Origin: Bacillus sp. FJAT-42315
GTDB taxonomy: Bacteria > Bacillota > Bacilli > Bacillales > Domibacillaceae
DNA length: 64,000 nt
Assembly (NCBI RefSeq): GCF_002797375.1
Contig: NZ_KZ454941.1
Span: forward strand, 979,974 to 1,043,973
Direction of reading: 5' to 3'
The notes beneath the pieces were generated by a model, which made no database searches, was not told the DNA's origin, and saw nothing but the letters and a program-made list of their open reading frames with translations. Below are positions 39,724-57,887 of this stretch, in pieces (positions within the stretch are counted from its first letter, which is position 1; every line of letters begins with the position of its first letter). Made by a program: the position numbers and the translations under genes.

Positions 39724-40560
39724 ATGAAAAAGTGGTTATTTGCTTTACTTACATCAGTAGTTGTATTAGCCCTTGCGGCATGCGGCGGTTCAGAAGAGAA
39801 AAAAGAAGAAGGTAAGTCAGAAGAAGATAATAAATTGGTTGTTGGGGCGTCTAACGTTCCGCATGCGATCATTTTAGAAGAAGCTAAGCCGCTGTTAAAA
39901 GAAAAGGGCTATGATTTAGAGATTGAAACATTCAATGATTATGTGTTACCGAATAAAGCGTTAGATGAAGGCGAATTAGATGCGAACTATTATCAGCATA
40001 TTCCGTTTTTGGAGTTGCAAAAGGAAGAGCATGGTTACAAGTTTGAAAATGCGAGTGGTATTCATATCGAGCCAATCGGTGTGTACTCGAAAAAATATAA
40101 AAGCTTAGACGAACTACCTAAAGGCGCAAAAGTGTTAATGAGCAGTTCTGTAGCTGACCACGGTCGTGTGTTAAGCCTGTTAGAAAAAGAAGGTCTAATT
40201 AAGCTGAAAGATGGTATTAATAAAACTGAGGCGACACTTGAAGACGTTAGCGAAAATAAAAAGGATTTACAATTTGAATATAACTATGAACCTGCTTTCC
40301 TTCCACAAGCATTTAACAATGGAGAAGGCGACGTAGTATTAATTAATTCTAACTTTGCGATTGATTCGGGATTAGACCCGTTGAAAGATCCGATTGCTAT
40401 TGAATCAAACGATTCTCCATACGTGAACATCGTGGCTGTGCGCAGTGGAGATGAGAACAGTGAAAAAATTAAAGCGTTGATCGACGTATTGCATTCACAA
40501 GAAATTCAAGACTTTATTATGAAAGAGTGGAAAGGCGCGATCGTTCCAGTAAATGAATAG
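39724..40560 (+). CDS. metQ: Methionine-binding lipoprotein
   Basis: A 278-residue NlpA-family lipoprotein. The lipobox LAAC gives the lipidated cysteine at residue 20. The mature domain opens with NKLVVGASNVPHAIILEEAKPLL and contains NYYQHIPFLE and VALINSNFAI-like YNYEPAFLPQAF...VVLINSNFAIDSG. It binds methionine (D- or L-) at the cell surface. GAGGAGGAA precedes the start. It ends the SAM-controlled operon. Confidence 0.93.
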   Translation: MKKWLFALLTSVVVLALAACGGSEEKKEEGKSEEDNKLVVGASNVPHAIILEEAKPLLKEKGYDLEIETFNDYVLPNKALDEGELDANYYQHIPFLELQKEEHGYKFENASGIHIEPIGVYSKKYKSLDELPKGAKVLMSSSVADHGRVLSLLEKEGLIKLKDGINKTEATLEDVSENKKDLQFEYNYEPAFLPQAFNNGEGDVVLINSNFAIDSGLDPLKDPIAIESNDSPYVNIVAVRSGDENSEKIKALIDVLHSQEIQDFIMKEWKGAIVPVNE

Positions 40561-40568
40561 ATAGAAAG

Positions 40569-40608
40569 AAGCTTGTCGCTTGATTATCGAGTGGCAAGCT
40601 TTTTTTTA
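40569..40608 (+). terminator. Terminator of metNPQ
   Basis: AAGCTTGTC and a pairing GGCAAGCTT around the loop, followed by TTTTTTT. Confidence 0.8.
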
Positions 40609-40691
40609 TGGACTCTTCTTCGTAAAAATTTCGTATAAGCATCTATGTCTTATCACATATTAAAAGGGAAAAACAGACAGGAGGGATGACG

Positions 40692-41054
40692 ATGGAGACA
40701 GAGATGAATAATTTTTCACAGGAAGCGTTGCGAGAATATAAGGAAGGATTAGGGACGTTTGAGAAAAAGATGCCGGAGTTAGCCAAGCATTATAAAGATT
40801 TTACTGCGGCTTGTTTTAAAGAGGGAGATGTTGCGCTAAAGGAAAAGCATTTAATTGCGCTAGCGATCAGTGTATTCGCTCAAGATGAGTATTGCATGAT
40901 TTATCATGTGAAAGGCTGTTTGGATCAAGGGTGCAGTGAAACGGAAATGTTAGAGGCGATGGGAGTGGCTGCCGCCTTTGGTGGTGGAGCAGTCATGAGT
41001 CAAGCAGTGACGTTAGTTCAGGAAGCGATTCATGATTTAAGCCAGAAACATTAG
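40692..41054 (+). CDS. yurZ: Carboxymuconolactone decarboxylase (AhpD-like) family protein YurZ
   Basis: A 120-residue helical protein of the AhpD/CMD family. The family motif is EKHLIALAISVFAQDEYCMIYHVKGCLDQG, with a CxxxH pair and a second cysteine. Such proteins form oligomers with peroxidase or decarboxylase-like activity. I chose ATG 40692, 7 nt after AGGAGG; an ATG two codons earlier abuts the site. Position between metQ and sufC is that of yurZ. The reaction is unknown. Confidence 0.83.
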   Translation: METEMNNFSQEALREYKEGLGTFEKKMPELAKHYKDFTAACFKEGDVALKEKHLIALAISVFAQDEYCMIYHVKGCLDQGCSETEMLEAMGVAAAFGGGAVMSQAVTLVQEAIHDLSQKH

Positions 41055-41063
41055 TGGGAGGAT

Positions 41064-41180
41064 ATGAAAGGATATAGTAAGAATTTTAAGAATAAGGGAA
41101 CTAATCCGGGTGTCAGTGTTGGAGAGTCGATGAGAGCCGGTGAGAGCAAGCTATATGCTTTTTGTGGAAAAAGCCAATAA
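41064..41180 (+). CDS. Possible 38-residue small protein
   Basis: An ATG frame, MKGYSKNFKNKGTNPGVSVG..., ending at TAA 41178-41180. GGAGG lies only 2 nt before the ATG, which is too close for a good start. The composition is basic and polar. I do not recognise it. It could be a chance frame. Confidence 0.22.
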   Translation: MKGYSKNFKNKGTNPGVSVGESMRAGESKLYAFCGKSQ

Positions 41181-41235
41181 TTGTTAACATATATAGTGCA
41201 AGTTAAAAAACGGAAAGGAATGATTCCCTATTAAT

Positions 41236-41433
41236 TTGTTTAACTCACTGAATTTAACGTACACAGAAGGTATGGATAAGGCGATGCATGGAGCACATGG
41301 AGTCGGATACGAGGTGTACAGTCAAAATCATGAAGTGAGGATGGATGTTGAACGCCAGCGCGAAGAAGATTATATCAATAGTCGTCGCATGGTTGCAGAT
41401 TTTAGCCGTCGATTTATCAATCATTTATCATAA
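41236..41433 (+). CDS. Hypothetical 65-residue protein
   Basis: A short frame from TTG 41236 with an alternative ATG at 41272 (MDKAMHGAHGVGYEVYSQ). It has a glycine/histidine-containing start and a charged C-terminal half (VRMDVERQREEDYINSRRMVADFSRRFINHL) likely to be helical. The TTG has AAAGGAA about 16 nt upstream, which is far; the ATG has AGAAGGT immediately before it. A good terminator follows the stop, supporting a real transcript. No family is recognised. Confidence 0.45.
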   Translation: MFNSLNLTYTEGMDKAMHGAHGVGYEVYSQNHEVRMDVERQREEDYINSRRMVADFSRRFINHLS

Positions 41434-41440
41434 TAATGAG

Positions 41441-41470
41441 AAAAACCAGTGGGTAGCCGCTGGTTTTTTT
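41441..41470 (+). terminator. Rho-independent terminator
   Basis: AAAAACCAG and CTGGTTTTTTT with a short structured loop, 8 nt after the 65-residue frame. Confidence 0.85.
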
Positions 41471-41672
41471 CGATTATAAATGAATAGAAATTTTTCATTT
41501 ATTTAGGGAAAGACTACTATATAATGAAGCGGAATTTTTGGTATAATCAAATATCTCAGCAATTCTTTTAGATTGGTTGAATATACTTTTAATTTGTTAT
41601 AAGATTGTAATGAGAATAAATTGAGAATGACAATAATTCAACAACATTTTCGATAACGACGGAGGTATAGAT

Positions 41673-42452
41673 ATGACAGCTTCTACATTAGTAATTAAAG
41701 ACTTACATGTAGCAATTGAGGGTAAAGAGATTTTAAAGGGTGTAAACCTTGAGATAAAAGGTGGAGAATTCCACGCAATCATGGGACCAAACGGAACAGG
41801 TAAATCAACATTATCTTCCGCAATCATGGGTCATCCGAAATATGAAGTGACACAAGGTAGCATTGAGCTTGACGGTGAAGACGTATTAGAAATGGAAGTA
41901 GATGAGCGCGCTCGTGCCGGTCTATTTCTTGCGATGCAATACCCAAGCGAAATTACAGGTGTAACAAATGCGGACTTCTTACGTTCTGCGATCAATAGCC
42001 GCCGTGAAGAAGGCGATGAAATTTCTTTAATGAAATTCATCCGTAAAATGGACGAAAAAATGGACTTCCTTGAAATGGATCAAGATATGGCGCAACGTTA
42101 CTTAAACGAAGGCTTCTCTGGTGGAGAGAAAAAGCGTAACGAAATCCTTCAATTAATGATGATCGAACCAAAAATTGCGATCCTTGATGAAATCGATTCT
42201 GGTCTAGATATCGACGCATTAAAAGTCGTTTCTAAAGGAATCAACGACATGCGCGGCAGTGAGTTCGGATGCCTAATGATCACTCACTATCAACGTCTTT
42301 TGAACTACATCACTCCTGATAAAGTACACGTAATGATGCAAGGTCGTATCGTGAAATCAGGTGGCCCTGAGCTTGCTCAACGCTTAGAAGCAGAAGGATA
42401 TGACTGGATTAAGCAAGAGCTTGGAATCGAAGACGAAACAGTGAGTCAATAA
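41673..42452 (+). CDS. sufC: Fe-S cluster assembly ATPase SufC
   Basis: A 259-residue ABC-type ATPase with Walker A GPNGTGKST, signature FSGGEKKRNEIL and Walker B KIAILDEIDSGLDIDALK. It is soluble and powers the SufBCD scaffold that builds Fe-S clusters. GGAGGT precedes the ATG. It is the first gene of sufCDSUB; more than 200 nt upstream is available for the promoter, with TATAAT-like boxes near 41518 and 41540. Confidence 0.95.
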   Translation: MTASTLVIKDLHVAIEGKEILKGVNLEIKGGEFHAIMGPNGTGKSTLSSAIMGHPKYEVTQGSIELDGEDVLEMEVDERARAGLFLAMQYPSEITGVTNADFLRSAINSRREEGDEISLMKFIRKMDEKMDFLEMDQDMAQRYLNEGFSGGEKKRNEILQLMMIEPKIAILDEIDSGLDIDALKVVSKGINDMRGSEFGCLMITHYQRLLNYITPDKVHVMMQGRIVKSGGPELAQRLEAEGYDWIKQELGIEDETVSQ

Positions 42453-42490
42453 GAGCCATTTTAGGAAAGCTGATCACTAGGAGGATGAAC

Positions 42491-45454
<2,964 letters not shown>

Positions 45455-45481
45455 TTATAATGACGACAGGAGGAATATAAC

Positions 45482-46879
45482 ATGGCAAAGAAAATGCCAG
45501 AAATCGGGGATTACAAATACGGTTTTAAAGATAAAGACGTATCTGTTTACCGTTCAGAGCGTGGATTAACACGTGAAATCGTGGAAGAAATCTCTAAATT
45601 AAAAGATGAACCACAATGGATGCTAGACTTTCGCTTAAAATCACTCGAACTTTTTTATGAAATGTCGATGCCACAATGGGGCGGCGACCTTTCTTCATTA
45701 AGCTTTGATGAAATCACTTACTACGTGAAGCCATCAGAGAAATCTGAGCGTTCTTGGGATGAAGTACCAGAAGAAATCAAACAAACTTTTGACAAACTTG
45801 GTATTCCAGAAGCGGAACAAAAATATCTTGCTGGTGTATCCGCACAGTATGAATCAGAGGTTGTTTACCACAACATGAAGGAAGACCTAGAAGATTTAGG
45901 GATCGTCTTCAAAGATACGGATTCTGCATTAAAAGAAAACGAAGACATCTTCCGTAAATACTGGGCAAAAGTAATCCCACCAACAGACAATAAATTCGCA
46001 GCGTTAAACTCAGCGGTATGGTCAGGTGGATCATTCATCTACGTACCACCAGGTGTAAAAGTAGATACGCCATTACAAGCGTACTTCCGCATCAACTCTG
46101 AAAACATGGGTCAGTTCGAGCGTACGCTAATCATCGTAGACGAAGGCGCAAGCGTACACTACGTAGAAGGATGTACAGCACCTGTCTACACAACGAACTC
46201 CCTTCACAGTGCGGTTGTAGAAATCTACATTAACAAAGATGCTTACTGCCGTTACACAACGATCCAAAACTGGGCAAACAACGTTTACAACCTAGTAACG
46301 AAGCGTGCCGTTTGTGAAGCGAACGCAACGATGGAATGGATCGACGGAAACATCGGATCGAAATTAACGATGAAATATCCAGCCGTTATTCTAAAAGGCG
46401 AAGGTGCTCGTGGTTTAACTCTTTCCATCGCGATTGCTGGTAAAGGCCAACACCAAGATGCCGGAGCAAAAATGATTCACCTTGCACCGAACACATCTTC
46501 AACGATCGTATCTAAATCGATCGCCAAACAAGGCGGAAAAGTAACGTACCGCGGTATCGTTCACTTCGGACGCAAAGCAGAAGGCGCGCGCTCTAATATC
46601 GAGTGCGACACGTTAATTATGGATAACCAATCCACATCGGATACGATTCCATACAACGAAATCTTAAACGACAACATCTCTTTAGAACACGAAGCAAAAG
46701 TTTCAAAAGTATCTGAAGAGCAACTATTCTACTTGATGAGCCGCGGCGTTTCTGAAGAAGAAGCAACAGAAATGATCGTCATGGGCTTCATCGAGCCATT
46801 CACAAAAGAACTTCCAATGGAATACGCGGTTGAAATGAACCGTTTGATAAAGTTTGAGATGGAAGGTAGTATCGGATAA
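45482..46879 (+). CDS. sufB: Fe-S cluster assembly protein SufB
   Basis: A 465-residue core scaffold on which Fe-S clusters are built with SufC and SufD. Family stretches are [47 protein letters not shown] and [23 protein letters not shown]. It ends in [21 protein letters not shown] precedes the start. A degenerate copy of its last nine codons lies at 50366, beyond the DNA-methylase island. Confidence 0.95.
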
Positions 46880-46882
46880 TAT
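46850..46882 (+). repeat. sufB tail, left copy of the island-flanking duplication
   Basis: The codons for KFEMEGSIG plus TAATAT at the end of sufB. The right copy is at 50366-50398. Identical blocks are ATGGAAG and GGATAATAT. Confidence 0.55.
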
Positions 46883-46886
46883 AGGT

Positions 46887-46925
46887 AAAAGCCCGCCACA
46901 ACATTGTTTGTGGCGGGCTTTCTTA
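46887..46925 (+). terminator. Terminator of sufCDSUB
   Basis: AAAAGCCCGCCACA, loop, TGTGGCGGGCTTTCTT, 8 nt after sufB. Confidence 0.88.
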
Positions 46926-46970
46926 TAAGGAAATACCTTTAAAGTATAGAAGGTTAATGCTTAATCAATA

Positions 46971-46999
46971 TTATTATAAGAAGTTGCTTATGATATAAT
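46971..46999 (+). promoter_or_regulatory. Promoter of the methylase-DUF262-HEPN island
   Basis: TTATTA (46971-46976), 17-nt spacer, TATAAT (46994-46999) with an extended TGA before the -10. The methylase ATG is 44 nt downstream. Confidence 0.6.
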
Positions 47000-47042
47000 G
47001 ACTTTGAATTAAAAGGAATATGTATTTTGAAAGGTAAATGAA

Positions 47043-48467
47043 ATGAATTTAAAACATCAAATTTTTACCCCAGTAAACATTGTGAAAAAAATGTTAGATC
47101 AAATTAATTATTGCACTAATGTATATGGGAAAAAAGTTTTAGAGAGTGCTTGTGGAGATGGAAGTATATTGATTCCTTTAGTTAAACGATATATTGATTT
47201 ATGTATAAAAGAAAACTATACCTTAAGTCAGATAAAAAAAGGATTGGAAGAAGATATATATGCTATAGAAATTGATACTTATTACTATAAAAAATGTCTT
47301 CATAATTTAAATATTCTTATTAAAAATTATGGGATAAAAAGTGTTAAATGGAATTTGTATAACCTCGATAGTCTAAGGCATAATTGGGATTTCAAATTCG
47401 ATTATATAATAGGTAATCCACCTTATATCAGATATCATGATATAAAAACAGAGGATAGAGAGTTTTTAAGACATAAATATAAGTCTTGTGCAAAAGGAAA
47501 CTTTGATTATTATTATGCTTTTATTGAAGAAAGTATAAATTGTTTAAGTGAAGAAGGAAAGATGGTTTATTTAATACCAAATAATATATTTAAAAATGTA
47601 TATGCAAGTACATTGCGAAATATAGTCAAAGAAAAATTGACGAAGATATACGATTACACTCAAGAAAAAGTTTTTTCTGACATTCTAACTTCATCAGCAA
47701 TCATCTTAATTGATAATACTGTAAATAATAAATATCTAAAGTATTACAATGTATTTGAGAATAATTCTATTTTTGTGGATAAATCTCTTTTGGGAGAGAA
47801 ATGGGTATTTTCTGGAGTTGGTGATTGCAAACAAACAAAGTATAAATTTGGAGATTATTTTGAGGCTTCAATGACTATAGCAACACTATTAAATGAAGCA
47901 TATATATTAAAAGACTCCATAGAATTAAAGGATTTTTATGTGGTGAATGAATATAAGATTGAAAAAAGTTTGGTGAGGGAAGCTGCTAGTCCTAGGAGTT
48001 TATACTATAAAAAAAATGAAAAGATAATATTTCCTTATTATTATGAGGATGGTGAGCTACGAAGGTATTCACCCAAATTGTTTGAAACACAGTTTCCATA
48101 TGCTACACAATATTTTAAAAAATTTGAAGCTAAACTTCTTAAAAGAAAAGTTAGTGCTAATGTGTATTGGTTTGAATATGGAAGAACGCAAGCGCTACAC
48201 CATTTAAATCAGCCTAAACTATTATTATCTACAGTGATTACAAAAGAAGTTAAAGTTTATGAATTAGACAAATATACCATACCCTATTCAGGGATATACA
48301 TAACCCCAAAATCTGGAGTGGGTTTGAAAGTAGCTAAAGTAGTATTAGAGTCAAATGAATTTTATGAGTATGTTAAATCTATTGGTATAAATGCTAATAG
48401 TAATTCTATGAGAATAACTGCTAAAGATATAAAAAACTTTCCTGTTGATGAAAAATATCTAATGTGA
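47043..48467 (+). CDS. N6-adenine DNA methyltransferase (Eco57I/TaqI-like class)
   Basis: A 474-residue methyltransferase. The N-terminus has HQIFTPVNIVKKML (motif X type), motif I is VLESACGDGS (residues 32-41), and motif IV is the catalytic NPPY at 125-128 in YIIGNPPYIRYHD. This indicates adenine-N6 methylation. The C-terminal half (about 270-474) should hold the target-recognition domain. GAAAGGT precedes the ATG. The gene is far richer in A+T than sufB, with many ATA, AGA and AAT codons, indicating recent acquisition. No classical restriction endonuclease is adjacent; instead DUF262 and HEPN genes follow. It may mark self DNA for them, or be an orphan methylase. Confidence 0.86.
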   Translation: MNLKHQIFTPVNIVKKMLDQINYCTNVYGKKVLESACGDGSILIPLVKRYIDLCIKENYTLSQIKKGLEEDIYAIEIDTYYYKKCLHNLNILIKNYGIKSVKWNLYNLDSLRHNWDFKFDYIIGNPPYIRYHDIKTEDREFLRHKYKSCAKGNFDYYYAFIEESINCLSEEGKMVYLIPNNIFKNVYASTLRNIVKEKLTKIYDYTQEKVFSDILTSSAIILIDNTVNNKYLKYYNVFENNSIFVDKSLLGEKWVFSGVGDCKQTKYKFGDYFEASMTIATLLNEAYILKDSIELKDFYVVNEYKIEKSLVREAASPRSLYYKKNEKIIFPYYYEDGELRRYSPKLFETQFPYATQYFKKFEAKLLKRKVSANVYWFEYGRTQALHHLNQPKLLLSTVITKEVKVYELDKYTIPYSGIYITPKSGVGLKVAKVVLESNEFYEYVKSIGINANSNSMRITAKDIKNFPVDEKYLM

Positions 48468-48480
48468 AGGAGGTTGTACA

Positions 48481-49590
48481 ATGCTTGACCAAGAAGTAAA
48501 AGAAAAATCTAAAGAAATATTTACCGATTCTTATACTATGTCAGTGGGAGAAATAGCTAGTATGTATAAAGAAGGGGAATTAGAGTTGCAGCCCGATTAT
48601 CAACGATTTTTTAGATGGTCTAATGCTCAAAAAACCAAATTTATCGAGTCTATTTTGTTAGGAATACCTATCCCACCTATTTTTGTATATCAAAAAGAGG
48701 ATGGGATATGGGCTGTAATAGATGGATTGCAAAGGTTATCCACGATATTTCAGTTTATGGATATACTAGTCGATTTAAATGAAAATCATGGTGTTAATGA
48801 CCTAGAGTTACAAGCTACTCAGTTCTTACCTTCTTTAGAAGGCAAAGAGTGGGAGGGGGAAAATCCTATATCTAAAGAACTGAAGTTGTTTTTTAAGAGA
48901 GCACGTCTAGATGTTAAGATTATAAAATATACGAGTGACGTTGATGCACAATATGAACTTTTTCAAAGGCTAAATACTGGTGGATCAACTTTAACTCCCC
49001 AGGAAATCCGAAATAGCCTTATGATTATGGAAAATAAATCATTTTATGTATGGTTTGAAGGTTTAACCAAAGATGAAAATTACATTAATTGTTTACCATT
49101 AAGTAGTAAACAAAGAGACGAAAAAGAAGATATGGAGTATTTATTAAGATTTTTTATTTATCGAGATTTAAAAACAGAAAGTATAAAAGGAAATGAAGAT
49201 ATTGCACCTTTTCTAACTGAAAAAATGCATGAATTAATAAATAAATTAGACTTTGATTATAATCATGAGAAAACAGTATTTGAAAATGTATTTTTATTCT
49301 TAAATACTGCTTTAGGGGAAGAGAGTTTTAAAAAATATGATTTTAATAAAAGCAAATTTGCCGGCGCTTTATCAATTGCTCAGTTTGAAGTGATTATTCC
49401 TGGTGTTGCAAAAGCAGTGATAAAAAGTCCGTATGATATAAATCAAACGGAAAGAACAGAAAAATTAGCGGCACTAGTAAAAGAGTTAGCGAAAGATACT
49501 TCCTTTCAGGTTAAAAAGAATCAATACCGACCTATATTGCGCATGAAAGAGCTAGTAGCATATAGTGAGGAATATTTTGATGGATTGTGA
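48481..49590 (+). CDS. DUF262 (GmrS/ParB-like) domain protein
   Basis: A 369-residue protein with an N-terminal DUF262 domain. The motifs are LELQPDYQRFFRWS (about 35-48), KFIESILLGIPIPPIFVY and VIDGLQRLSTI (79-89, a variant of the DGQQR nucleotide-site motif), followed by FQRLNTGGSTLTPQEIRNSL (161-180). The C-terminal half is helical, and I see no DUF1524 HNH motif, so it is not a full GmrSD type IV restriction enzyme. AAGGAGG lies upstream, 13 nt after the methylase. It overlaps the HEPN gene by 11 nt. DUF262 proteins bind or hydrolyse nucleotides and occur in phage-defence systems; here it may sense and control the HEPN partner. Confidence 0.85.
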   Translation: MLDQEVKEKSKEIFTDSYTMSVGEIASMYKEGELELQPDYQRFFRWSNAQKTKFIESILLGIPIPPIFVYQKEDGIWAVIDGLQRLSTIFQFMDILVDLNENHGVNDLELQATQFLPSLEGKEWEGENPISKELKLFFKRARLDVKIIKYTSDVDAQYELFQRLNTGGSTLTPQEIRNSLMIMENKSFYVWFEGLTKDENYINCLPLSSKQRDEKEDMEYLLRFFIYRDLKTESIKGNEDIAPFLTEKMHELINKLDFDYNHEKTVFENVFLFLNTALGEESFKKYDFNKSKFAGALSIAQFEVIIPGVAKAVIKSPYDINQTERTEKLAALVKELAKDTSFQVKKNQYRPILRMKELVAYSEEYFDGL

Positions 49591-50245
49591 AAGATTACAA
49601 AATAAACTTGATAGAAATTCTAGTTATAGAAAAAGAGAAATTCTAAATTTAACTATACAAATTGAGTCGGTAGAGGGAGAAGTGCAAAAATCTTTATTAA
49701 GGGCTTCTTTTATACTTTTGTACGCACATTTTGAAGGGTTTACTAAACAAGCTATACGTTTATTTTTACAACATATAAATAGTGAACAAGTTCCTGTTAA
49801 AGAGTTGAAATATCACTTACAAACTTTGTATCATACTAAAAAAATCATTGATGTAAAACAGTCTAAAAGGAAAATAAAATATAATGAGTTGACTACCGCA
49901 ATTCTATCAGGAAATGTAGAACCTTTTAAGGTTGAAGAAAGAGATCAAGATATTGTTTCAACAGAAAGTAATTTAAAATTCGATGTTATTGAAGACTTAT
50001 TATTTTTAATAGGGGTAACGACAGAAAATTTTATGATGATTTCTGATCGTAGAACCAGTATAGATACAAAACAAGAGTTTATAAATCGTAGAATTTTAGA
50101 TGCTAGAAACGCAATAGCACATGGAGAAAACACTATTATAACATTAGACGAATATAATGAAGTTAAAAACTTTATTATAGATTTTATAGATACATTGAAA
50201 GAATATCTTGTTGATATTAGTGTTAATAAATTATATTATGCATAG
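49580..50245 (+). CDS. HEPN family nuclease (MAE_28990/MAE_18760-like)
   Basis: A 221-residue helical protein with the HEPN ribonuclease motif R-x4-H, seen as RNAIAH at 176-181 in ILDARNAIAHGENT. The N-terminal part (LLRASFILLYAHFEGFTKQAIRLFLQHI) matches the MAE_28990/MAE_18760 group of HEPN proteins. It probably cleaves RNA when released from control. I chose ATG 49580, 8 nt after GAGGA; a GTG five codons earlier is possible. It overlaps the DUF262 gene, so the two are coupled. Pairing of these families is known in many genomes; a toxin-like effector role is inference. Confidence 0.8.
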   Translation: MDCERLQNKLDRNSSYRKREILNLTIQIESVEGEVQKSLLRASFILLYAHFEGFTKQAIRLFLQHINSEQVPVKELKYHLQTLYHTKKIIDVKQSKRKIKYNELTTAILSGNVEPFKVEERDQDIVSTESNLKFDVIEDLLFLIGVTTENFMMISDRRTSIDTKQEFINRRILDARNAIAHGENTIITLDEYNEVKNFIIDFIDTLKEYLVDISVNKLYYA

Positions 50246-50365
50246 ATGGGGATGTTTGGATGAAAAATATGTCAAACCGTTTTAGTTTAAATATGATAAG
50301 TTATCTTTCATAGAATGTGGATATATTAACGTTTTAATGTGTTTTATTTAACCAAAATAAACAAC

Positions 50366-50398
50366 AAGTTCAGAATGGAAGACAGTACAGGATAATAT
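50366..50398 (+). repeat. Degenerate copy of the sufB 3' end, right edge of the island
   Basis: Reads in frame as KFRMEDSTG-stop followed by TAT, against KFEMEGSIG-stop-TAT at the end of sufB. ATGGAAG and GGATAATAT are identical. A terminator hairpin follows, as after sufB. It marks where the island joined the old chromosome. Confidence 0.6.
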
Positions 50399-50401
50399 TC
50401 T

Positions 50402-50440
50402 CCCTTGCCACACCAATATTCGTGGCAAGGGTATTTTTAA
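50402..50440 (+). terminator. Terminator hairpin, copy 1
   Basis: CCCTTGCCAC, loop, GTGGCAAGGG, then TATTTTTAATTTT. It is nearly identical to the hairpin at 51365 and probably the original sufB terminator. Confidence 0.78.
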
Positions 50441-50567
50441 TTTTGTTTAATTTACGTTGATAGGAATTTCGTAATATCAACTGGTTGAGTACAGTTGACA
50501 AAGAAGTTTACTCCTTGAAATCTATGTATAATGAATGTAAGTACATGGTTCGAAAGGAGTCGAACAG

Positions 50568-50741
50568 ATGAAAAAGCTCACATTAGAATCGAAAGCATTT
50601 CAACAGATTCTTCAAAATCTTCGTTTGGAAAATCTAAACCTTCCTTTACCTTTGCAAAACAAAGTCATTGAACTAGTGAATGTGGAAGTAGAGATTGCCC
50701 CCAACCTTTTGAAGGGGATTTTACGTTATAGGGAAATATAA
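50568..50741 (+). CDS. Small hypothetical protein, 57 residues
   Basis: A short frame, MKKLTLESKAFQQILQNLRL..., with GAAAGGAG 8-9 nt upstream of the ATG. It is leucine- and asparagine-rich with two probable amphipathic helices (about 5-20 and 32-45) and a basic end, KGILRYREI. No membrane segment is seen. It lies 21 nt before the histidine phosphatase gene and may be co-transcribed with it. No family is recognised. Confidence 0.6.
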   Translation: MKKLTLESKAFQQILQNLRLENLNLPLPLQNKVIELVNVEVEIAPNLLKGILRYREI

Positions 50742-50762
50742 TACAGATCAGGAGCATACAAA

Positions 50763-51338
50763 ATGACAACACTAGGAATCATTCGCCATGGTAGTACACA
50801 TTGGAATAAAGAAGGGAGGGCACAAGGGAATGCCGATATCCCACTGGATCAAGACGGATTCTCTGATGCTCGTAAACTAGCAGAACGTTTAGCTACAGAA
50901 AATTGGGATTTGATTTATTCTAGTGATTTGCTAAGGGCAAAGCAAACGGCTGAAACAATAGGAGAAAGCATTGGAAATATAGACATTCATTTCGACTCTA
51001 GACTTCGTGAAGTGAGTGGTGGCCAAATTGAAGGAACAACGGAAGCTGAACGAATTTCAACGTGGGGAAATGACTGGAGAGAGCTCGATCTTGGAATCGA
51101 AAGTGCGGAAAGTGTTAAAGCAAGGGCATTGCCTTTTATTGAAGAAATGATAGATAAACACCCTAACAAAAACATCTTAATCGTTAGTCATGGTTCATTT
51201 ATTAAGCACCTTCTAAAAGAATTAGTGCCGCATTCGAGCATGACAGATTCTCTAAAAAATACATCCATAACTAAAGTTAAAAGTCTAGAAAACGGCTGGG
51301 ATTTAGAAGTATATAATTGCACCATCCATTTAGGTTAA
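50763..51338 (+). CDS. Histidine phosphatase family protein (phosphoglycerate mutase-like)
   Basis: A 191-residue enzyme of the histidine phosphatase superfamily. The phosphorylated histidine is in IIRHGSTHWNKEGRAQG (RHG motif, residues 8-10), and the second catalytic histidine is in IVSHGSFIKHLL. SSDLLRAKQTAETI is also typical. It is a cytosolic phosphatase of broad or unknown specificity; cofactor-dependent mutase activity is less likely. It ends before a terminator. Confidence 0.85.
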   Translation: MTTLGIIRHGSTHWNKEGRAQGNADIPLDQDGFSDARKLAERLATENWDLIYSSDLLRAKQTAETIGESIGNIDIHFDSRLREVSGGQIEGTTEAERISTWGNDWRELDLGIESAESVKARALPFIEEMIDKHPNKNILIVSHGSFIKHLLKELVPHSSMTDSLKNTSITKVKSLENGWDLEVYNCTIHLG

Positions 51339-51364
51339 CCCTTATAAGAGTGAAGCCAATTCGG

Positions 51365-51404
51365 CCCCTTGCCACACGAACATTCGTGGCAAGGGGTATT
51401 TCTG
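51365..51404 (+). terminator. Terminator hairpin, copy 2
   Basis: CCCCTTGCCAC, loop ACGAACATTC, GTGGCAAGGGG, then TATTTCTG. It is nearly the same as the hairpin at 50402. Confidence 0.75.
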
Positions 51405-51417
51405 CTCTCCTAAATCC

Positions 51418-51446
51418 TTGAAACGAATACATTTACATGCTACATT
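51418..51446 (+). promoter_or_regulatory. Promoter of the YibE/F pair
   Basis: TTGAAA (51418-51423), 17-nt spacer, TACATT (51441-51446). The TTG at 51418 opens a frame but is better read as the -35 box. Confidence 0.5.
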
Positions 51447-51477
51447 AAATTTCATCATGATGGCTGGGGGGTTTTTG

Positions 51478-52617
51478 TTGAATGTTTTTGTACATAAGTT
51501 AAAGGAAATGACTAGAGGGAAATTTATTTTTCTTATTTTGATTGCGCTTTGTTTTATTAGCTCTGTTGTGTTTGTTTATCACAATCACTTCCTCTATGAT
51601 CGTCCAATCGCTAAAGTGATTGATACGAGTGTGGAAGATACGGTGAAACTGACGGATGAGCATCATAATAAAGACCAGCTAGTTACACAGAAGGTTACGG
51701 CTGTCATCCAAAATGGAGAGGAAAAAGGAGAGCATATTGAGTTAACGAACAAGTACTCGTTGTCAGGAGTTTATGATCAAGTGTATCAAGTGGGGAACGA
51801 GTTGTTTGTGGCGATTGATACACGTACAAATGAAGAAGCGAATTTAACCGGACATATAACGAATGTCAAACGCGATAAATATATTGTCATCATTGGTTGG
51901 GTGTTTCTCTTTACTTTGCTGATCGTCGGCCAAAGGCAAGGGGTGCTCTCTATTATTAGTTTCGCTCTTAATGCTGTTTTGTTGTCCTATGCATTGGATG
52001 TTTATGTGAATAGTGCGACTCAGAGTTTACTATGGATATGTGGGATTACCGCGATTCTTTTTACGATCATTTCGCTAGTGCTCGTTAACGGGTTGAATGA
52101 AAAAACGTATGCAGCCATTGCGACAACTTTAATGGGAACATTTACTTCTTTGTTGATTACTTATCTGGCGATGTGGGTAACTGCTGAAAATGGTCTGCAC
52201 TATGAAGAGATGCAATTTTTGACTCGTCCGTATCAATTAGTGTTTATGGCAGGGCTATTGATTGGGTCTTTAGGGGCTGTCATGGATGTGGCGATTACGA
52301 TGTCTTCTTCGATCTTTGAGTTGCATGAAAAGAATCCCAATATGTCGATGAAAGCATTGAAAACGTCAGGGTTGGATATTGGAAGAAACATTATGGGAAC
52401 GATCACGAGTATTTTGTTTTTTGCCTATATTAGTGGTTCGATTCCGGTGCTTATTTTATATTTGAAAAATGGAGTCCCGTTAGGCTTCACTTTTTCCATG
52501 ACGCTTTCATTGGAAGTAGCTAGAGCTTTGGCGGGAGCAATTGGTATCGTGTTGACGATTCCGATTAGCCTATATACGTCGATGTTTTTCGTTAATCGAA
52601 AGAGGGCAAGATCATGA
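51478..52617 (+). CDS. YibE/F family membrane protein (first)
   Basis: A 379-residue membrane protein of the YibE/F family. It has an N-terminal anchor, an extracellular domain of about 110 residues (about 35-145), then about seven membrane segments. The family motif SLGAVMDVAITMSSSIFELHEKNP is present. I chose TTG 51478 with GGGGGG 7 nt upstream; longer frames would start inside the promoter. It overlaps the next gene by 4 nt, so the two form a pair. Function is unknown; a transporter is often assumed. Confidence 0.8.
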   Translation: MNVFVHKLKEMTRGKFIFLILIALCFISSVVFVYHNHFLYDRPIAKVIDTSVEDTVKLTDEHHNKDQLVTQKVTAVIQNGEEKGEHIELTNKYSLSGVYDQVYQVGNELFVAIDTRTNEEANLTGHITNVKRDKYIVIIGWVFLFTLLIVGQRQGVLSIISFALNAVLLSYALDVYVNSATQSLLWICGITAILFTIISLVLVNGLNEKTYAAIATTLMGTFTSLLITYLAMWVTAENGLHYEEMQFLTRPYQLVFMAGLLIGSLGAVMDVAITMSSSIFELHEKNPNMSMKALKTSGLDIGRNIMGTITSILFFAYISGSIPVLILYLKNGVPLGFTFSMTLSLEVARALAGAIGIVLTIPISLYTSMFFVNRKRARS

Positions 52618-53387
52618 ATGTGTTACTATTGCTGACAATTATTTTATTTATTTTAATGGTGCTTATTGGCGGGAAAAAAGGTGTGCGATCTTTTTTTTCT
52701 TTGTTTTTAAATTTTGGTGTGATTTTTCTAACGATCCTATTTATGCTTGATCCAGAAAGCAATACGGTGATCGTGACACTGATTGCATGTGTCATGATTA
52801 GTTGTATTAATCTATTTTATATTAATGAAGTGAATGGTCCAACAATCACTGCCTTCATTTCTACTCTCATTACGATTATTATTTTACTCTCGTTTATTCA
52901 CATCGTGACCGAATATACGATGATTCAAGGCTTTGGCGAAGAGGAAATTGAGGAGCTTAGCATTTTTTCCTTTTATGTTGGAGTGGATTTTGTGAAGATT
53001 GCAGCGGCGGTCATTATTATGAGTGCCATCGGGGCGATGATGGATGTGGCCATTTCGATCACTACTTCCATGCATGAAATATTTCATCATAATCCATTAC
53101 TCAGCAAGAAAGATTTATTCCGCTCAGGCTTAAGCGTTGGCAGAGATATATTGGGTACAGATACGAATACCTTATTTTTCGCCTTCTTTGGAAGCTATTT
53201 AGGCTTGCTCATCTGGTTTAAAGATTTATCCTATTCCTTTGGCGAAATCATCAATTCAAAAGTGTTTAGTGCAGAAATGATCACGATATTATGTTCTGGA
53301 ATCGGGATTGCATTGGTGATTCCCATCGCCTCATGGATGAGTGCTTATTCGTTGACGAGAAATAAAGAGAAATCACAACATATGTAA
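52614..53387 (+). CDS. YibE/F family membrane protein (second)
   Basis: A 257-residue membrane protein with about seven hydrophobic segments. Its motif SAIGAMMDVAISITTSMHEIFHHNP parallels that of the first YibE/F gene, and DLFRSGLSVGRDILGTDTNTLFFAFFG is also family-typical. It lacks the extracellular domain of its neighbour. Its ATG overlaps the upstream stop (ATGA), suggesting a heteromeric membrane complex. Confidence 0.8.
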   Translation: MNVLLLLTIILFILMVLIGGKKGVRSFFSLFLNFGVIFLTILFMLDPESNTVIVTLIACVMISCINLFYINEVNGPTITAFISTLITIIILLSFIHIVTEYTMIQGFGEEEIEELSIFSFYVGVDFVKIAAAVIIMSAIGAMMDVAISITTSMHEIFHHNPLLSKKDLFRSGLSVGRDILGTDTNTLFFAFFGSYLGLLIWFKDLSYSFGEIINSKVFSAEMITILCSGIGIALVIPIASWMSAYSLTRNKEKSQHM

Positions 53388-53414
53388 GGCTGTCCTGCGG
53401 GGCAGTCTTTTTTA
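53388..53414 (+). terminator. Terminator of the YibE/F pair
   Basis: GGCTGTCC, loop TGC, GGGGCAGTC (with G-T pairs), then TTTTTT, directly after the stop codon. Confidence 0.7.
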
Positions 53415-53547
53415 TGTGGTGTAGGGAGTCAGTAAAAAAGCAAGCCCATTCAGCAAATCACTCCCCTTGATCTAGTAAAAAATCCACGTTACTCAGCAAA
53501 CCCGAAAGCTAAACTATGATAAAATATAACTAAAAGAGGTGAGCCTT

Positions 53548-54393
53548 ATGATATATGTTGGTTTAACTGGCTGGGGCGATCATGATACGCTGTATCAGCA
53601 TGGTGTGGCCTCTCGGGATAAATTGACGGAATATGCGGCGCATTTTCCGATTGTGGAGTTGGATGCGAGCTTTTATGCGGTGCAGCCGCTGCGGAATATG
53701 GAGAAGTGGGTGGCTGGGACGCCGGAGAAGTTCAAGTTTATTGTGAAAGCATATCAAGGGATGACGGGACATCAACGCGGGGAGATTCCGTTTGATTCGA
53801 AAGAGGAGATGTTTCAACGGTTTAATGAGTCGCTTCAGCCTTTAGTCGAGTCTGATAAGCTGGCGATGGTGCTGTTTCAATTTCCACCTTGGTTTGATTG
53901 TCAGCGGAAAAATGTCAACTATTTACGTTACTGTAAAGAGCAAATGCGAGACGTACCACTCGCTCTTGAGTTTCGTCATCAATCGTGGTACTTGCCGGAA
54001 TATAGAGAACAGACGCTCACGTTTATGGAACAAGAGAAGTGGATTCATACCGTTTGCGATGAGCCACAGGCTGGCGAAGGCTCTGTGCCGATCATTTTAC
54101 AAGCAACGGATACAGTAAAAACGCTCGTCCGCTTGCATGGTCGCAACGTTCACGGTTGGCGTCAACAAAATAATCCAAATTGGCGAGAAGTAAGATATTT
54201 GTATGACTATAATGATGAAGAGCTCGGACAATGGGTGGAATATGCCAACCAATTGCAAAAGCAGAGTGAACATCTTTACGTGCTATTTAACAATAACTCT
54301 GGCGGACATGCGGCGAACAACGCGAAACGGTTTATTGAATTGGCCGATTTGACATACGAGGATTTGGCTTCTCGTCAGCTAGATTTATTTTAA
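53548..54393 (+). CDS. yunF: DUF72 domain protein YunF
   Basis: A 281-residue DUF72 protein with a predicted TIM-barrel. Typical stretches are YVGLTGWGDHDTLY, FPIVELDASFYAVQP, FIVKAYQGMTGHQRG, LALEFRHQSWY and YVLFNNNSGGHAANNAKRF. I chose ATG 53548, 6-7 nt after AGAGGTG. The biochemical role of DUF72 is not known. It is the first of the yunF-yunE-yunD run. Confidence 0.87.
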   Translation: MIYVGLTGWGDHDTLYQHGVASRDKLTEYAAHFPIVELDASFYAVQPLRNMEKWVAGTPEKFKFIVKAYQGMTGHQRGEIPFDSKEEMFQRFNESLQPLVESDKLAMVLFQFPPWFDCQRKNVNYLRYCKEQMRDVPLALEFRHQSWYLPEYREQTLTFMEQEKWIHTVCDEPQAGEGSVPIILQATDTVKTLVRLHGRNVHGWRQQNNPNWREVRYLYDYNDEELGQWVEYANQLQKQSEHLYVLFNNNSGGHAANNAKRFIELADLTYEDLASRQLDLF

Positions 54394-54409
54394 GAAGGGT
54401 GGACTTCGG

Positions 54410-55231
54410 ATGGAATGGATAATATTAGTTGCAATCGGCTTAGTGGCGGGAACGCTCGGGGCACTTGTTGGACTAGGAGGCGGGATTATTATCGTACCAG
54501 CGCTCCTGTTTTTCGGGACTTCAACAAGTCTGTTAATGGGCCTTTCTCCGCAACAAGCGGTTGGGACGTCGCTTGTCATTATGATTTTTACCGGGCTGTC
54601 TTCTACGCTTGCTTATATGAAGCATAAGACCGTCGATTATAAAAGTGGACTGATTTTCTTTATTGGGAGCGGACCGGGTGGTATTGTCGGTGCTTACGTT
54701 AACAAAGCGTTAAATATGGATTCATTCAATATTTATTTTGGGTTGTTTATGATTTTTATGGCGTTTGTGTTGATGATTCGTTCGAAGATTAAGCCGTTAG
54801 CTTCAAGCGGTAACCGTGGGATTCAACGACAATTTACTGAACTGAGTGGCGAGGTTCATACATATAGTTTTCAACCAGTAACAGCGATTCTTATTTCATT
54901 TTTTGTCGGTTTTTGTTCAGGGATCTTTGGCATCGGTGGAGGGTCACTGATGGTGCCAGCGATGATTCTCTTATTTGCTTTTCCTCCGCATGTAGCGGTG
55001 GCGACATCGATGTTTATGATCTTCTTGTCGGCCCTTGTTAGTTCGATTACACATGTCGCGTTTGGCAATGTCGTATGGTTATATGCACTCGCTTTAATTC
55101 CTGGAGCATGGATCGGGGCTAAGCTCGGTGCATACTTAAACTCAAGGCTGCAATCGAATACACTGGTGACGGTTTTACGTTTCGTTTTAATTATCGTTGG
55201 TATCCGTTTAATTTATCAGGGGCTTGTTTGA
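54410..55231 (+). CDS. yunE: TauE/SafE family membrane protein YunE
   Basis: A 273-residue membrane protein with about eight segments in two internally similar halves. Each half holds the family motif: GTLGALVGLGGGIIIVPALLFF at about 15-36 and GFCSGIFGIGGGSLMVPAMILL near 167-188. The family is linked to export or uptake of sulfite, sulfonates or organic anions. GAAGGGTGG precedes the start. The substrate is unknown. Confidence 0.87.
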   Translation: MEWIILVAIGLVAGTLGALVGLGGGIIIVPALLFFGTSTSLLMGLSPQQAVGTSLVIMIFTGLSSTLAYMKHKTVDYKSGLIFFIGSGPGGIVGAYVNKALNMDSFNIYFGLFMIFMAFVLMIRSKIKPLASSGNRGIQRQFTELSGEVHTYSFQPVTAILISFFVGFCSGIFGIGGGSLMVPAMILLFAFPPHVAVATSMFMIFLSALVSSITHVAFGNVVWLYALALIPGAWIGAKLGAYLNSRLQSNTLVTVLRFVLIIVGIRLIYQGLV

Positions 55232-55253
55232 TGCTTGAAAATGAGGTGAAAGT

Positions 55254-56636
55254 TTGAAAACAACCGTTCATATTTATCATACGAATGATTTTCATAGCCA
55301 TTTTGAAAATTGGCCTCGCATTCAGAAGTTTTTACAAGAGAGAAGAAAATGGCACGAAGAAGCAGGAGAAGACGTATTCATTTTTGATATCGGTGACCAT
55401 GTCGACCGCTCGCATCCGTTAACGGAGGGGACGCTCGGACAAGCGAATGTGGAACGATTAAATGAAGCGGGTTATGATGCGGTAACAATCGGTAATAACG
55501 AAGGGATCACATTGCCACATGAAAGCTTAGATCTTCTCTACAAGCAGGCGAAGTTTCCGGTGGTTGTTGCCAATTTATTTTACCGAGATGGAAGCCGTCC
55601 GACGTGGACACAGCCTTCGTGGACCTTTGAGTTGAAAAATGGAATGAAGCTCGGTGTCACAGGGGTGACGGCCTATTATTTGGCTTTTTATCAAGGGTTA
55701 GGCTGGCAAATTGCTGAGCCGTTTCAAGTGTTACAAACAGAGGTACAACAGCTATCGACACAGGCCGACTTCACCGTTGTGCTGTCCCATTTAGGGATGT
55801 ATGATGATGAAAAAATAGCGGAAGATTTCGCTGAAGTAGATGTCATCCTTGGTGGACATACGCACCATTTGTTTCATGAAGGGAAAACGGTCCATGATAA
55901 GCTGCTCGGTGCGGCAGGGAAATTTGGTTATTACGTTGGTCATATCCAATTAGAAGTGGATGCAGAAACGAAAATGATCCTTTCGAAAAAGGCTCGTGTG
56001 TATGAAACGAATGAAGAACTAGATGCTCCGCCGCGAGAGCAAGAGATGATCAAACAATTTGATGAGCAAGGTCGGCAAGCGTTGCAGCAGCCGGTTGTTT
56101 CGCTTCCTCGACCGTTCAGCTGTGATTGGTTTCAGCCATCTGATTTGCCGAAAGTTTTATGTGAAGCGTTAACGGAATGGTGCGAGGCGGATGGAGCGTT
56201 TTTAAATGCTGGGGTGGTGCTTGATCGTCTTGATGTTGGAATGGTCACGAAATACGATCTTCACCGTATTCTTCCTCATCCAATTAATCCTTGTCTCATT
56301 GAATTGACCGGGGCAGAGTTGAAGGAAGTGCTGAAGCAAACGTTTGATGAGAAATGGCCCCATTTAGCAATTAAAGGGTTCGGTTTTCGTGGCAAAGTCA
56401 TGGGCCGGTTTGTGTATGACAACATCGCAGTCGATCTTAAGCAGTACCAGTTTAAAATCGGCGGAAAAGACATTGAAGCAGACAAGCTGTACCGCATAGC
56501 GACATTAGATATGTTTACGTTTGGACATTTGTTTCCGATCCTTCATCGCGCTGCTCATAAAAAATATTTTATGCCTGAATTTTTGCGAGATGTGATGGAG
56601 TGGAAACTACTCCAACTCACTTCTCATGTAAAATAA
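55254..56636 (+). CDS. yunD: Metallophosphoesterase / 5'-nucleotidase YunD
   Basis: A 460-residue protein with an N-terminal calcineurin-like metallophosphoesterase domain. Metal ligands lie in YHTNDFHSH (9-16), FDIGDHVDR, IGNNEG and ILGGHTHHLF. The C-terminal 5'-nucleotidase domain spans about 285-440. There is no signal peptide, so unlike secreted UshA it should be cytosolic. The start is TTG 55254 after GAGGTGAAAG. It is expected to hydrolyse nucleotides; the physiological substrate is unknown. Confidence 0.87.
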   Translation: MKTTVHIYHTNDFHSHFENWPRIQKFLQERRKWHEEAGEDVFIFDIGDHVDRSHPLTEGTLGQANVERLNEAGYDAVTIGNNEGITLPHESLDLLYKQAKFPVVVANLFYRDGSRPTWTQPSWTFELKNGMKLGVTGVTAYYLAFYQGLGWQIAEPFQVLQTEVQQLSTQADFTVVLSHLGMYDDEKIAEDFAEVDVILGGHTHHLFHEGKTVHDKLLGAAGKFGYYVGHIQLEVDAETKMILSKKARVYETNEELDAPPREQEMIKQFDEQGRQALQQPVVSLPRPFSCDWFQPSDLPKVLCEALTEWCEADGAFLNAGVVLDRLDVGMVTKYDLHRILPHPINPCLIELTGAELKEVLKQTFDEKWPHLAIKGFGFRGKVMGRFVYDNIAVDLKQYQFKIGGKDIEADKLYRIATLDMFTFGHLFPILHRAAHKKYFMPEFLRDVMEWKLLQLTSHVK

Positions 56637-56691
56637 GTCATGATCCTTTCTTTTCTAAGCATACATATAGCTTAGAGGAGGAGGGATTTTT

Positions 56692-57444
56692 TTGGCTGCA
56701 AAAAGGAAATGGAAATCAAGAAGAGGGCCGCTCCCTTTGCAATACGTCATGTTAATTACATTGATCTTATTTTCTTTTTCCACAGCATTCAGCTTATGGG
56801 TCATTAATAAAAATATTAAGCCGACGCTCGTCGGTTATGCTAAAACAGAAACGAGAAAGATCGCCTCGATGGTGATTAGCAAAGCGATCAATAAAAAGAT
56901 CGCGAATGTGATGGATATTAATGACATTATCGAAACGGAACCAGGGGAGCCATCGACAACGAAATTGAATACGGAAATTATTAATCGTGTGCTGGCAGAG
57001 ACGACCAACCTTGTGCAATTAAACTTAAAAGAGGCTGAAAAAGGCAATTTAGACGTGCTTGAATTGATTTCTGATGTAGAAATTGAAAGGGAAGAAACGA
57101 AGGAAATGGAAGGGATCGTGTATTATATTCCGTTAGGGCAAGTGACCAATAATGCGTTGCTCGGTAACCTCGGTCCACAAATTCCGATTCGTTTTCATGC
57201 GGTAGGTGATGTCACCTCGAATGTGAAAACGAATGTGAAGCCTTATGGGATTAATAATGCGTACGTGGAAGTGTTTATTGAATTAGAAGTCAATGTGCAA
57301 ATTATCGTCCCATTTGCGACGGAATATTCCACGGTGAAGCAAGATATTCCTGTAGCGATGGGGCTAATTAAAGGAGAAGTACCGAACTTTTATAACGGTG
57401 GTGGTGATGGGGCGAATCCGTCCATCGAGTTGCCGATGGATTAA
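56692..57444 (+). CDS. yunB: Sporulation protein YunB
   Basis: A 250-residue protein with a basic N-terminus (AAKRKWKSRRGPLP) and one membrane segment (about 20-38), then a large extracytoplasmic domain with MVISKAINKKIANVMDINDII and GLIKGEVPNFYNGGG. This matches YunB, a mother-cell (sigma-E) sporulation protein needed for efficient spore formation. The start is TTG 56692 after GAGGAGGAGGG. Confidence 0.9.
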   Translation: MAAKRKWKSRRGPLPLQYVMLITLILFSFSTAFSLWVINKNIKPTLVGYAKTETRKIASMVISKAINKKIANVMDINDIIETEPGEPSTTKLNTEIINRVLAETTNLVQLNLKEAEKGNLDVLELISDVEIEREETKEMEGIVYYIPLGQVTNNALLGNLGPQIPIRFHAVGDVTSNVKTNVKPYGINNAYVEVFIELEVNVQIIVPFATEYSTVKQDIPVAMGLIKGEVPNFYNGGGDGANPSIELPMD

Positions 57445-57578
57445 GTATGTTGAGGGAATAACAAAAAATTACTTTTTGTAAAGATGAAGAGAGAATTTTC
57501 TGGATTTTTAAAATCGCTTGGCAAAAGCAAGTTTAGCTGTTAATATTTTAGTAATAAAATAATAAACCTTATCAAAAT

Positions 57579-57826
57579 CCGGTGGGGTAGAGGATGCAAA
57601 GTTAATGAGTAGTTTGCGTGAGGATGACAACGAAGATCGCAAGTGAAAGGTGAGTTTGCCGAAGTAAGTAAGATGCGTCAACGTCTTTCATACTGGGGTT
57701 ATCTTGAAGAAGGATAACACTCTCATTGTAAAGAAATTGTTTGCAATGGGGAGCTACACGATGGAGGAATGACTTACATTACACAAAAGGTAATGATAGT
57801 ATTCTCTATCATTACCTTTTTTTATT
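57579..57826 (+). ncRNA. Lysine riboswitch (L-box) with terminator
   Basis: The leader carries the conserved L-box blocks GGGGTAGAGGATGCAAAG, GTGAAAGGTGAGTTTGCCGAAG, a CTGGGG loop and GGGGAGCTACACGATGG, in order and spacing expected for the lysine aptamer (about 57579-57768). A terminator follows: GGTAATGATAG, loop TATTCT, CTATCATTACC and a T-run (57789-57826). High lysine should stop transcription before the transporter gene. Confidence 0.85.
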
Positions 57827-57887
57827 TTTTTCAACATTCCCTTCAGACCCTGTCCTCTCTTTTTCATCGGTAGGAGGAGCAAAAAAT

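Follow-up and report, generated by a model that had tools for sequence, protein, structure and literature searches.

What does a DNA methylase contribute to an operon whose predicted effector would cut RNA? The question is raised by a cassette of three genes in Bacillus sp. FJAT-42315, which we analyzed within a stretch of 64,000 nucleotides (nt) of contig NZ_KZ454941.1 (assembly GCF_002797375.1, positions 979,974 to 1,043,973 of the forward strand), referred to here as the window and numbered from its first letter. On the plus strand the cassette encodes an N6-adenine methylase of 474 amino acids (aa) at 47043..48467, a DUF262 (GmrSD_N) protein of 369 aa, the predicted sensor, at 48481..49590, and a HEPN protein of 221 aa, the predicted ribonuclease (RNase) effector, at 49580..50245. 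Our answer, to which we assign a probability of about one-half, is that the cassette is a horizontally acquired anti-phage system resembling restriction-modification (R-M), in which the "restriction" arm acts on RNA. Its computed support consists of the parts themselves, their invariant catalytic and pocket motifs, the occurrence of the cassette at three unrelated sites, and the recurrent linkage of methylases to the DUF262-HEPN pair.

A predicted sensor without a DNase and a predicted RNase in one operon

A sequence-only reading of this DNA had described three consecutive genes with these domains in an A+T-rich island, and on both points the data agreed. The open reading frame (ORF) list and Pfam gave the same genes, and the GC content was 0.24 to 0.34 in 500-nt windows within 47000-50499, compared with 0.37 to 0.49 in most flanking windows from 40000 to 58000 (minimum, 0.336). 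The HEPN ORF as listed spans 49565-50245 from a GTG at 49565, but the ATG at 49580 is the more likely start, and from this codon the gene shares 11 nt with the end of the DUF262 ORF. Given this overlap and a GGAGG seen by eye before the ATG of the DUF262 gene, translation of the DUF262 and HEPN genes may be coupled. Together, the three genes form a tight A+T-rich operon.

The methylase was assigned to the Eco57I/N6_Mtase type by Pfam (PF07669, Eco57I, E value of 3.8e-25; PF02384, 1.4e-13) and PADLOC (MTase_II, 1.5e-50) and carries the catalytic motif IV, NPPY, at residues 125-128 (47415..47426, plus strand). A sequence search of solved structures returned adenine methylases, the best being 7lni (3.4e-15), and the match to TaqI was weak, so that the structures do not give the target site of the enzyme; nor was an endonuclease of known site annotated in the four regions inspected around its plasmid relatives. 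The alignment of the window methylase found no match in viral contigs. The sole other match to N6_Mtase (PF02384) in this genome lay in a 338-aa open frame (G000:C1:1211515-1212159).

The DUF262 protein matched PF03235 (GmrSD_N, 1.2e-26) over residues 25-181 and consists of a ParB/Srx-like N-domain followed by a helical C-part. Pfam gave no DUF1524 match at an E value of ≤1, in line with the earlier claim that an HNH part is missing. The QR, DGxQR, and FxxxN motifs of GmrSD-type enzymes were all kept, and Q41, R42, D81, G82, Q84, R85, F161, and N165 were invariant across 52 aligned homologues. The nucleotide-pocket motif DGLQR (residues 81-85; 48721..48735, plus strand) had been called a variant. 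The motif is present, but it is the usual form of the subfamily, since DGxQR occurred in all 80 DUF262 representatives and was DGLQR in 64 of them (DGVQR in 8 and DGQQR in 8). Neither the DUF262 nor the HEPN protein had a relative among solved structures in the sequence search. The best structural matches of a predicted model of the DUF262 protein were among the GmrSD, BrxU, SspE, and DndI group, and the model resembles BrxU up to about the start of the BrxU deoxyribonuclease (DNase).

The HEPN protein is of the MAE_28990/MAE_18760-like (RiboL-PSP-HEPN) type, matching PF18735 (2.6e-31) and PF18737 (MAE_28990/MAE_18760-like; 6.7e-28, positions 3-211 of 211) and no other Pfam domain. Across 46 HEPNs with a mean column identity of 21%, only E52, R176, and H181 were fully invariant, the pattern expected under selection for catalysis. 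The R-x4-H motif (R176-NAIA-H181; 50105..50122, plus strand) was kept in 73 of 73 HEPN representatives. By analogy with its family, the protein would act as an RNase through cleavage of RNA by a dimer, and the alignments support the view that a HEPN protein with intact catalytic residues is encoded where a DNase would be.

The same cassette at three unrelated sites

Desemzia incerta (L018) and another genome (L025) carry the three genes, identically ordered and with near-identical spacing, at unrelated sites. Identities of the DUF262, methylase, and HEPN proteins to those of the window were 69, 57, and 64% for L018 and 68, 60, and 61% for L025, and the distance from methylase to DUF262 was 14 to 15 nt in all three cassettes, with 13 nt lying between the two ORFs in the window. 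As judged by eye, the L018 cassette sits between guaA-like and SDR-like genes, and that of L025 adjoins an rlmH-like gene. A search of genome contigs with a single protein yielded Desemzia only. Because the same cassette recurs at three unrelated sites, the data support the three genes being a unit beyond chance neighborhood.

The neighbors of the cassette in the window, assigned by eye, are sufB, a small ORF of ~57 aa (50569-50742), and, beyond it, a histidine-phosphatase-like gene (50763-51338). In the congener G002, the stretch 46884..51416 is missing and sufB runs directly into the gene at window position 51418. The small ORF and the phosphatase-like gene lie inside the missing stretch, and the cassette may therefore be only part of the insert. 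No DUF262 match at an E value of ≤1e-20 was found in any of four same-genus genomes. Within the genus, insertion at the 3' end of sufB is variable; the congener G004 has integrase-like ORFs there (by eye). The DUF262-HEPN cassettes of L025, L028, and L030 all adjoin an rlmH-like gene (by eye), rlmH being the attachment gene of SCC-type elements. L030 has type-I-like hsdM and hsdS genes (by eye) after the methylase of the pair.

Linkage of methylases to the DUF262-HEPN pair

Relatives of the DUF262 protein at an E value of ≤1e-30 were present in 7 of 397 genomes of the order and 11 of 398 of the phylum, own genome included; matches were also obtained in 18 plasmid records (1e-20), 17 phage records (1e-15), and at least 79 loci of viral contigs. 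The 107 loci scanned comprised the window and 106 fetched loci, the viral ones being the best 80 of 84 relatives, with 7 of the 18 plasmid and 3 of the 17 phage records fetched. Eleven loci with a DUF262 match weaker than 1e-55 or an ORF of ≤300 aa (L049, L050, L051, L053, L060, L061, L091, L097, L125, L139, and L140) were left out of the counts; a methylase-like ORF lay within 3 kb in L050, L060, L061, L097, L139, and L140. In 87 of the 89 loci whose downstream sequence was long enough (71 of 73 representatives), the DUF262 gene was followed by the HEPN gene, and this pair is the core of the system. In L053, a Leptospira plasmid, the DUF262 frame is split into two ORFs beside the HEPN gene.

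A methylase lay within 2 kb of the pair in 28 of 60 eligible nonredundant representatives and belonged to one of four profile classes, A to D. Eligibility, reached by 60 of the 80 representatives, meant at least 2.5 kb upstream, at least 3.0 kb downstream, and a HEPN match; methylases were detected by profiles A to D or a cytosine-methylase motif, so that other kinds could be missed. The question raised from the sequence, whether the three families co-occur elsewhere, has a mixed answer: by the profiles used, 32 of the 60 had no methylase within this distance, and L054 (CP056768), a mobilizable plasmid of 5.7 kb, carries the pair without one. The linkage is nevertheless above the flanking background. 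Among ORFs of at least 300 aa, a methylase motif occurred in 28 of the 79 lying up to 1.3 kb from the pair versus 6 of 140 farther away (Fisher P = 2e-9). This motif count is the fair version of the comparison; the corresponding profile count (28 near versus 1 far) is biased because the profiles were built from near enzymes.

Methylase labels were also clustered on a quick DUF262 tree, with 21 changes compared with 40.5 in shuffles; the 13 rows with short flanks were given their own label, and 9 changes remained without them. A clade of 12 was entirely methylase-linked (support of 84, not starred), as were 10 of 11 members of a class B clade. The 36 rows without a methylase clustered as well (13 changes versus 26.5), though not as a single clade, and no recurrent third gene was seen beside methylase-free pairs, whose neighbors were inspected by eye, with gene families not searched.

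The 31 linked representatives, eligible or not, comprised 3 of class A (the window type), 11 of class B, 8 of class C, and 9 of class D. Class A and B methylases lie upstream of the pair on the same strand, class C methylases lie downstream and are convergent, and the placement of class D varies. Pfam assigned the scanned enzymes to Eco57I for A and D, N6_N4_Mtase for B, and N6_Mtase for C; by profile cross-scores, classes A, C, and D are remotely related to one another (the D profile scored 45 to 50 bits to A and 23 to 36 to C), and the class B proteins examined carry the string SPPYCTRIDY. In 9 of the 11 class B representatives, the methylase lay upstream of DUF262 at -70 to 26 nt, the other two being at 299 and 638 nt. 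Methylase distances tracked DUF262 distances in classes B and D but not in class C (L058, weakly class B at 8e-7, was excluded from this test). Cytosine methylases accompanied the pair, by annotation or motif, in P2_4B2 and a Moraxella phage, and also in all 7 matching genomes among 5,426 of E. coli, in a search whose query included the methylase. In L046, an AIPR protein (Pfam), cytosine-methylase-like and Vsr-like genes (by eye), a class B methylase, and the pair stand in one run.

Exchange of methylases at related pairs

Seen from the methylase side, close homologues of the window class were found in 2 of 397 order genomes (own included), both at a pair, and also in Desemzia. Remote homologues (31 to 33% identity) occurred in three other order genomes, none of them among the 7 with a DUF262 match, and on plasmids no DUF262 was annotated in 4 of 4 regions inspected, of 38 records matched. 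The possibility that homologous methylases are rarely beside the pair, which would have told against the sequence-only reading, was accordingly not borne out for close homologues but was for most remote ones. Class B occurred at 13 loci in viral contigs, two of them at a contig edge. Of the other 11, the pair was present at nine; at one, a different DUF262 gene precedes a gene of no known family, and the last has neither. Among plasmids, class B relatives occurred in three records, each of which also has a DUF262 match. The 22 loci with class C relatives of at least 49% identity included 14 with the pair, 1 with only HEPN at an edge, and 7 with neither. Many of these class B and C loci are near-duplicates or contigs already among the DUF262 viral loci.

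Five of the seven pair-less class C loci were viewed; one was cut off, and four have a GHKL-ATPase-like, a receiver-like, and an HNH-like gene, the last with HNH-like cysteines and histidines (by eye). In L175, Pfam confirmed the ATPase and gave nothing for the receiver-like and HNH-like genes. This run of a class C methylase with a GHKL-ATPase, seen in L175, L178, L179, and L181 (and, more distantly, L189 and L190), is possibly a separate restriction system in phages.

Closely related pairs were found beside far-diverged methylases. L052 and L068 are 77% identical in DUF262 and 73% in HEPN, and yet the L052 pair adjoins a PstI-type R-M system (class D) and the L068 pair a class C methylase, the two methylases being 21% identical over 209 residues. 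L088 and L090 (DUF262, 60%; HEPN, 41%) likewise differ in having PstI-type/class D and class C enzymes. The linkage is thus kept through methylase swaps, suggesting that methylase-linked pairs need a DNA methylase but no particular one.

Relation to known systems

The composition had been described from the sequence as one that cannot be named, which did not stand. The DUF262-HEPN pair is kin to PD-T4-2, a two-gene system active against T4. The best PADLOC profile for the window DUF262 protein was NsnA (2.9e-62), which we take to be the DUF262 gene of Menshen; PD-T4-2_A (3.5e-34) scored lower. The window HEPN protein matched no PADLOC PD-T4-2 model, and neither did that of the P2_4B2 relative; both are MAE_28990-like by Pfam. 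The window differs further from PD-T4-2 in having a methylase.

The statements on published work that follow draw on excerpts of the papers cited. DUF262 and HEPN are given as the content of PD-T4-2 (PMC10952713), and T4 formed plaques on ECOR65 once PD-T4-2 was deleted (PMC9519451). A closer precedent is the MAE_28990 HEPN row in a table of PMC3710099, dating from 2013, which lists an operon with ParB nuclease and DNA methylase genes and thus the same composition as here (ParB-type [DUF262], methylase, and HEPN); in the excerpt, it is a one-line entry with no system name, test, methylase classes, or swaps. The GmrSD, BrxU, SspE, and DndI proteins share the DUF262 fold and the three pocket motifs, whereas the window protein lacks their DUF1524/HNH DNase and is followed by a separate HEPN gene. 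In Menshen the partner is an OLD nuclease (PMC10952713), in place of the HEPN protein and methylase found here, and no OLD-type nuclease gene was seen by eye among the window neighbors. ptuXYZ (PMC11980606) likewise has a DUF262 protein without DUF1524 in an operon with an RNase, but the RNase there is of the BECR fold, a P-loop ATPase is encoded by the second gene, and the excerpt names no methylase. The commonest enterobacterial DUF262 proteins have been surveyed, with DUF262-nuclease and double-DUF262 forms (PMC12373910), and other systems are described in PMC12137116, PMC11980606, and PMC13092281. Our literature searches, whose scope left out most subscription papers and all bioRxiv-only preprints, gave no experimental study of the DUF262-HEPN-methylase triad among the matches listed.

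Proposed mechanism and alternatives

In the proposed mechanism, the N6-adenine methylase would mark a specific sequence in the cell's own DNA. The DUF262 protein, as a BrxU/SspE/DndI-like nucleoside triphosphate-dependent DNA sensor without a DNase, would inspect DNA and, as long as the mark is present on it, keep the HEPN protein, encoded by the overlapping gene, in an inactive state. Unmarked incoming DNA, or methylation lost in infection, would switch the DUF262 protein and activate the HEPN protein, whose dimer, judging from its family, would cut RNA, and phage production would be stopped by dormancy or cell death. We infer both the gating of the pair by methylation and the cleavage of RNA. 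The outline offered from the sequence alone, a unit with a DNase-less DUF262 protein and HEPN in the place of the DNase, survives in this scheme, with the methylase found to be recurrent and not universal. A wider and doubtful proposal is that the pair serves as a general cartridge for restriction by RNA cleavage, which would read DNA methylation and work with interchangeable modification enzymes, the swapped methylases marking the same site in the clades that carry classes A, C, and D. Restriction through the cutting of RNA would then depend on an epigenetic DNA mark. CTGCAG, the site of PstI and BsuBI, would be the first candidate for a common site because PstI-type enzymes occur at five locus groups.

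It is less probable, though the strongest of the competing explanations, that the pair is a PrrC-like guard, a second line of defence that monitors a methylase or an R-M complex and is set free once this is inhibited or overwhelmed by a phage, the DUF262 protein itself reading no methylation. HEPN genes tied to R-M systems have been argued to act in this way (PMC3710099), and PrrC-PrrI is a case of a HEPN RNase tied to a DNA modification system, with an ABC-type NTPase and a type I R-M system where the window has DUF262 and a solitary methylase. The same pair family stands beside PstI-type endonucleases in L052, L062/L063 (fused to the methylase), L076, L088, and L139 and beside a PaeR7I-type enzyme in L056 (annotation), and far-diverged methylases at closely related pairs would suit a guard indifferent to sequence. 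However, profiles found a PstI-type endonuclease in only 4 of the 31 methylase-linked representatives, the other 27 including the window, with other endonuclease types not systematically searched. In the window, Pfam showed no ABC-type NTPase like that of PrrC in the HEPN protein, and by eye the neighbors include no hsd genes and no cognate DNA endonuclease gene such as a type II R-M system would have beside its methylase. Furthermore, a guard bound to a complex should not readily accept four adenine-type classes and cytosine enzymes, some of them convergent.

We also consider it unlikely that the pair works like a type IV system, in which the DUF262 protein would recognize modifications of foreign DNA in the manner of GmrSD, BrxU, and GrwAB and then activate the HEPN protein, the methylase being an independent orphan that either shields the cell from another restriction system or was picked up with it. 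Sensing of modified DNA is described for DUF262 relatives that have DUF1524 (PMC10952713, PMC12137116), PD-T4-2 acts on T4, which has modified DNA, and methylase-free pairs are common. This explanation does not account for a methylase linkage that greatly exceeds the flanking background and is clustered on the tree, nor for the window cassette as three genes at three sites, and a methylase encoded next to a sensor of methylated DNA would harm its own host unless the sensor disregarded its mark. Unrelated genes gathered at the same insertion sites are a very improbable explanation: the sufB 3' end is variable in the genus, some loci such as L046 hold several defence genes, and class C methylases do not track their pairs, but the methylase lies 14 to 15 nt from DUF262 in the window, L018, and L025, and class B combines tight upstream spacing in 9 of 11 cases with methylase distances that, like those of class D, follow the DUF262 distances. 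A plain toxin-antitoxin system with DUF262 as the antitoxin was set aside because it would not explain the methylase linkage; it may still apply to pairs without a methylase.

The composition of the cassette has a precedent, and what is added here is the methylase linkage counts, classes, and swaps across the family. It is these linked but swappable methylases that are worth following. Because far-diverged methylases adjoin closely related pairs, the gating question is directly testable: if swapped methylases share a common site, the DUF262 protein can read the mark, whereas differing sites would mean that the pair guards the enzyme or ignores it. If methylation does gate the pair, an RNA-cutting effector would be under the control of self/non-self discrimination on DNA, and restriction-modification and abortive infection would be joined in one small cassette.

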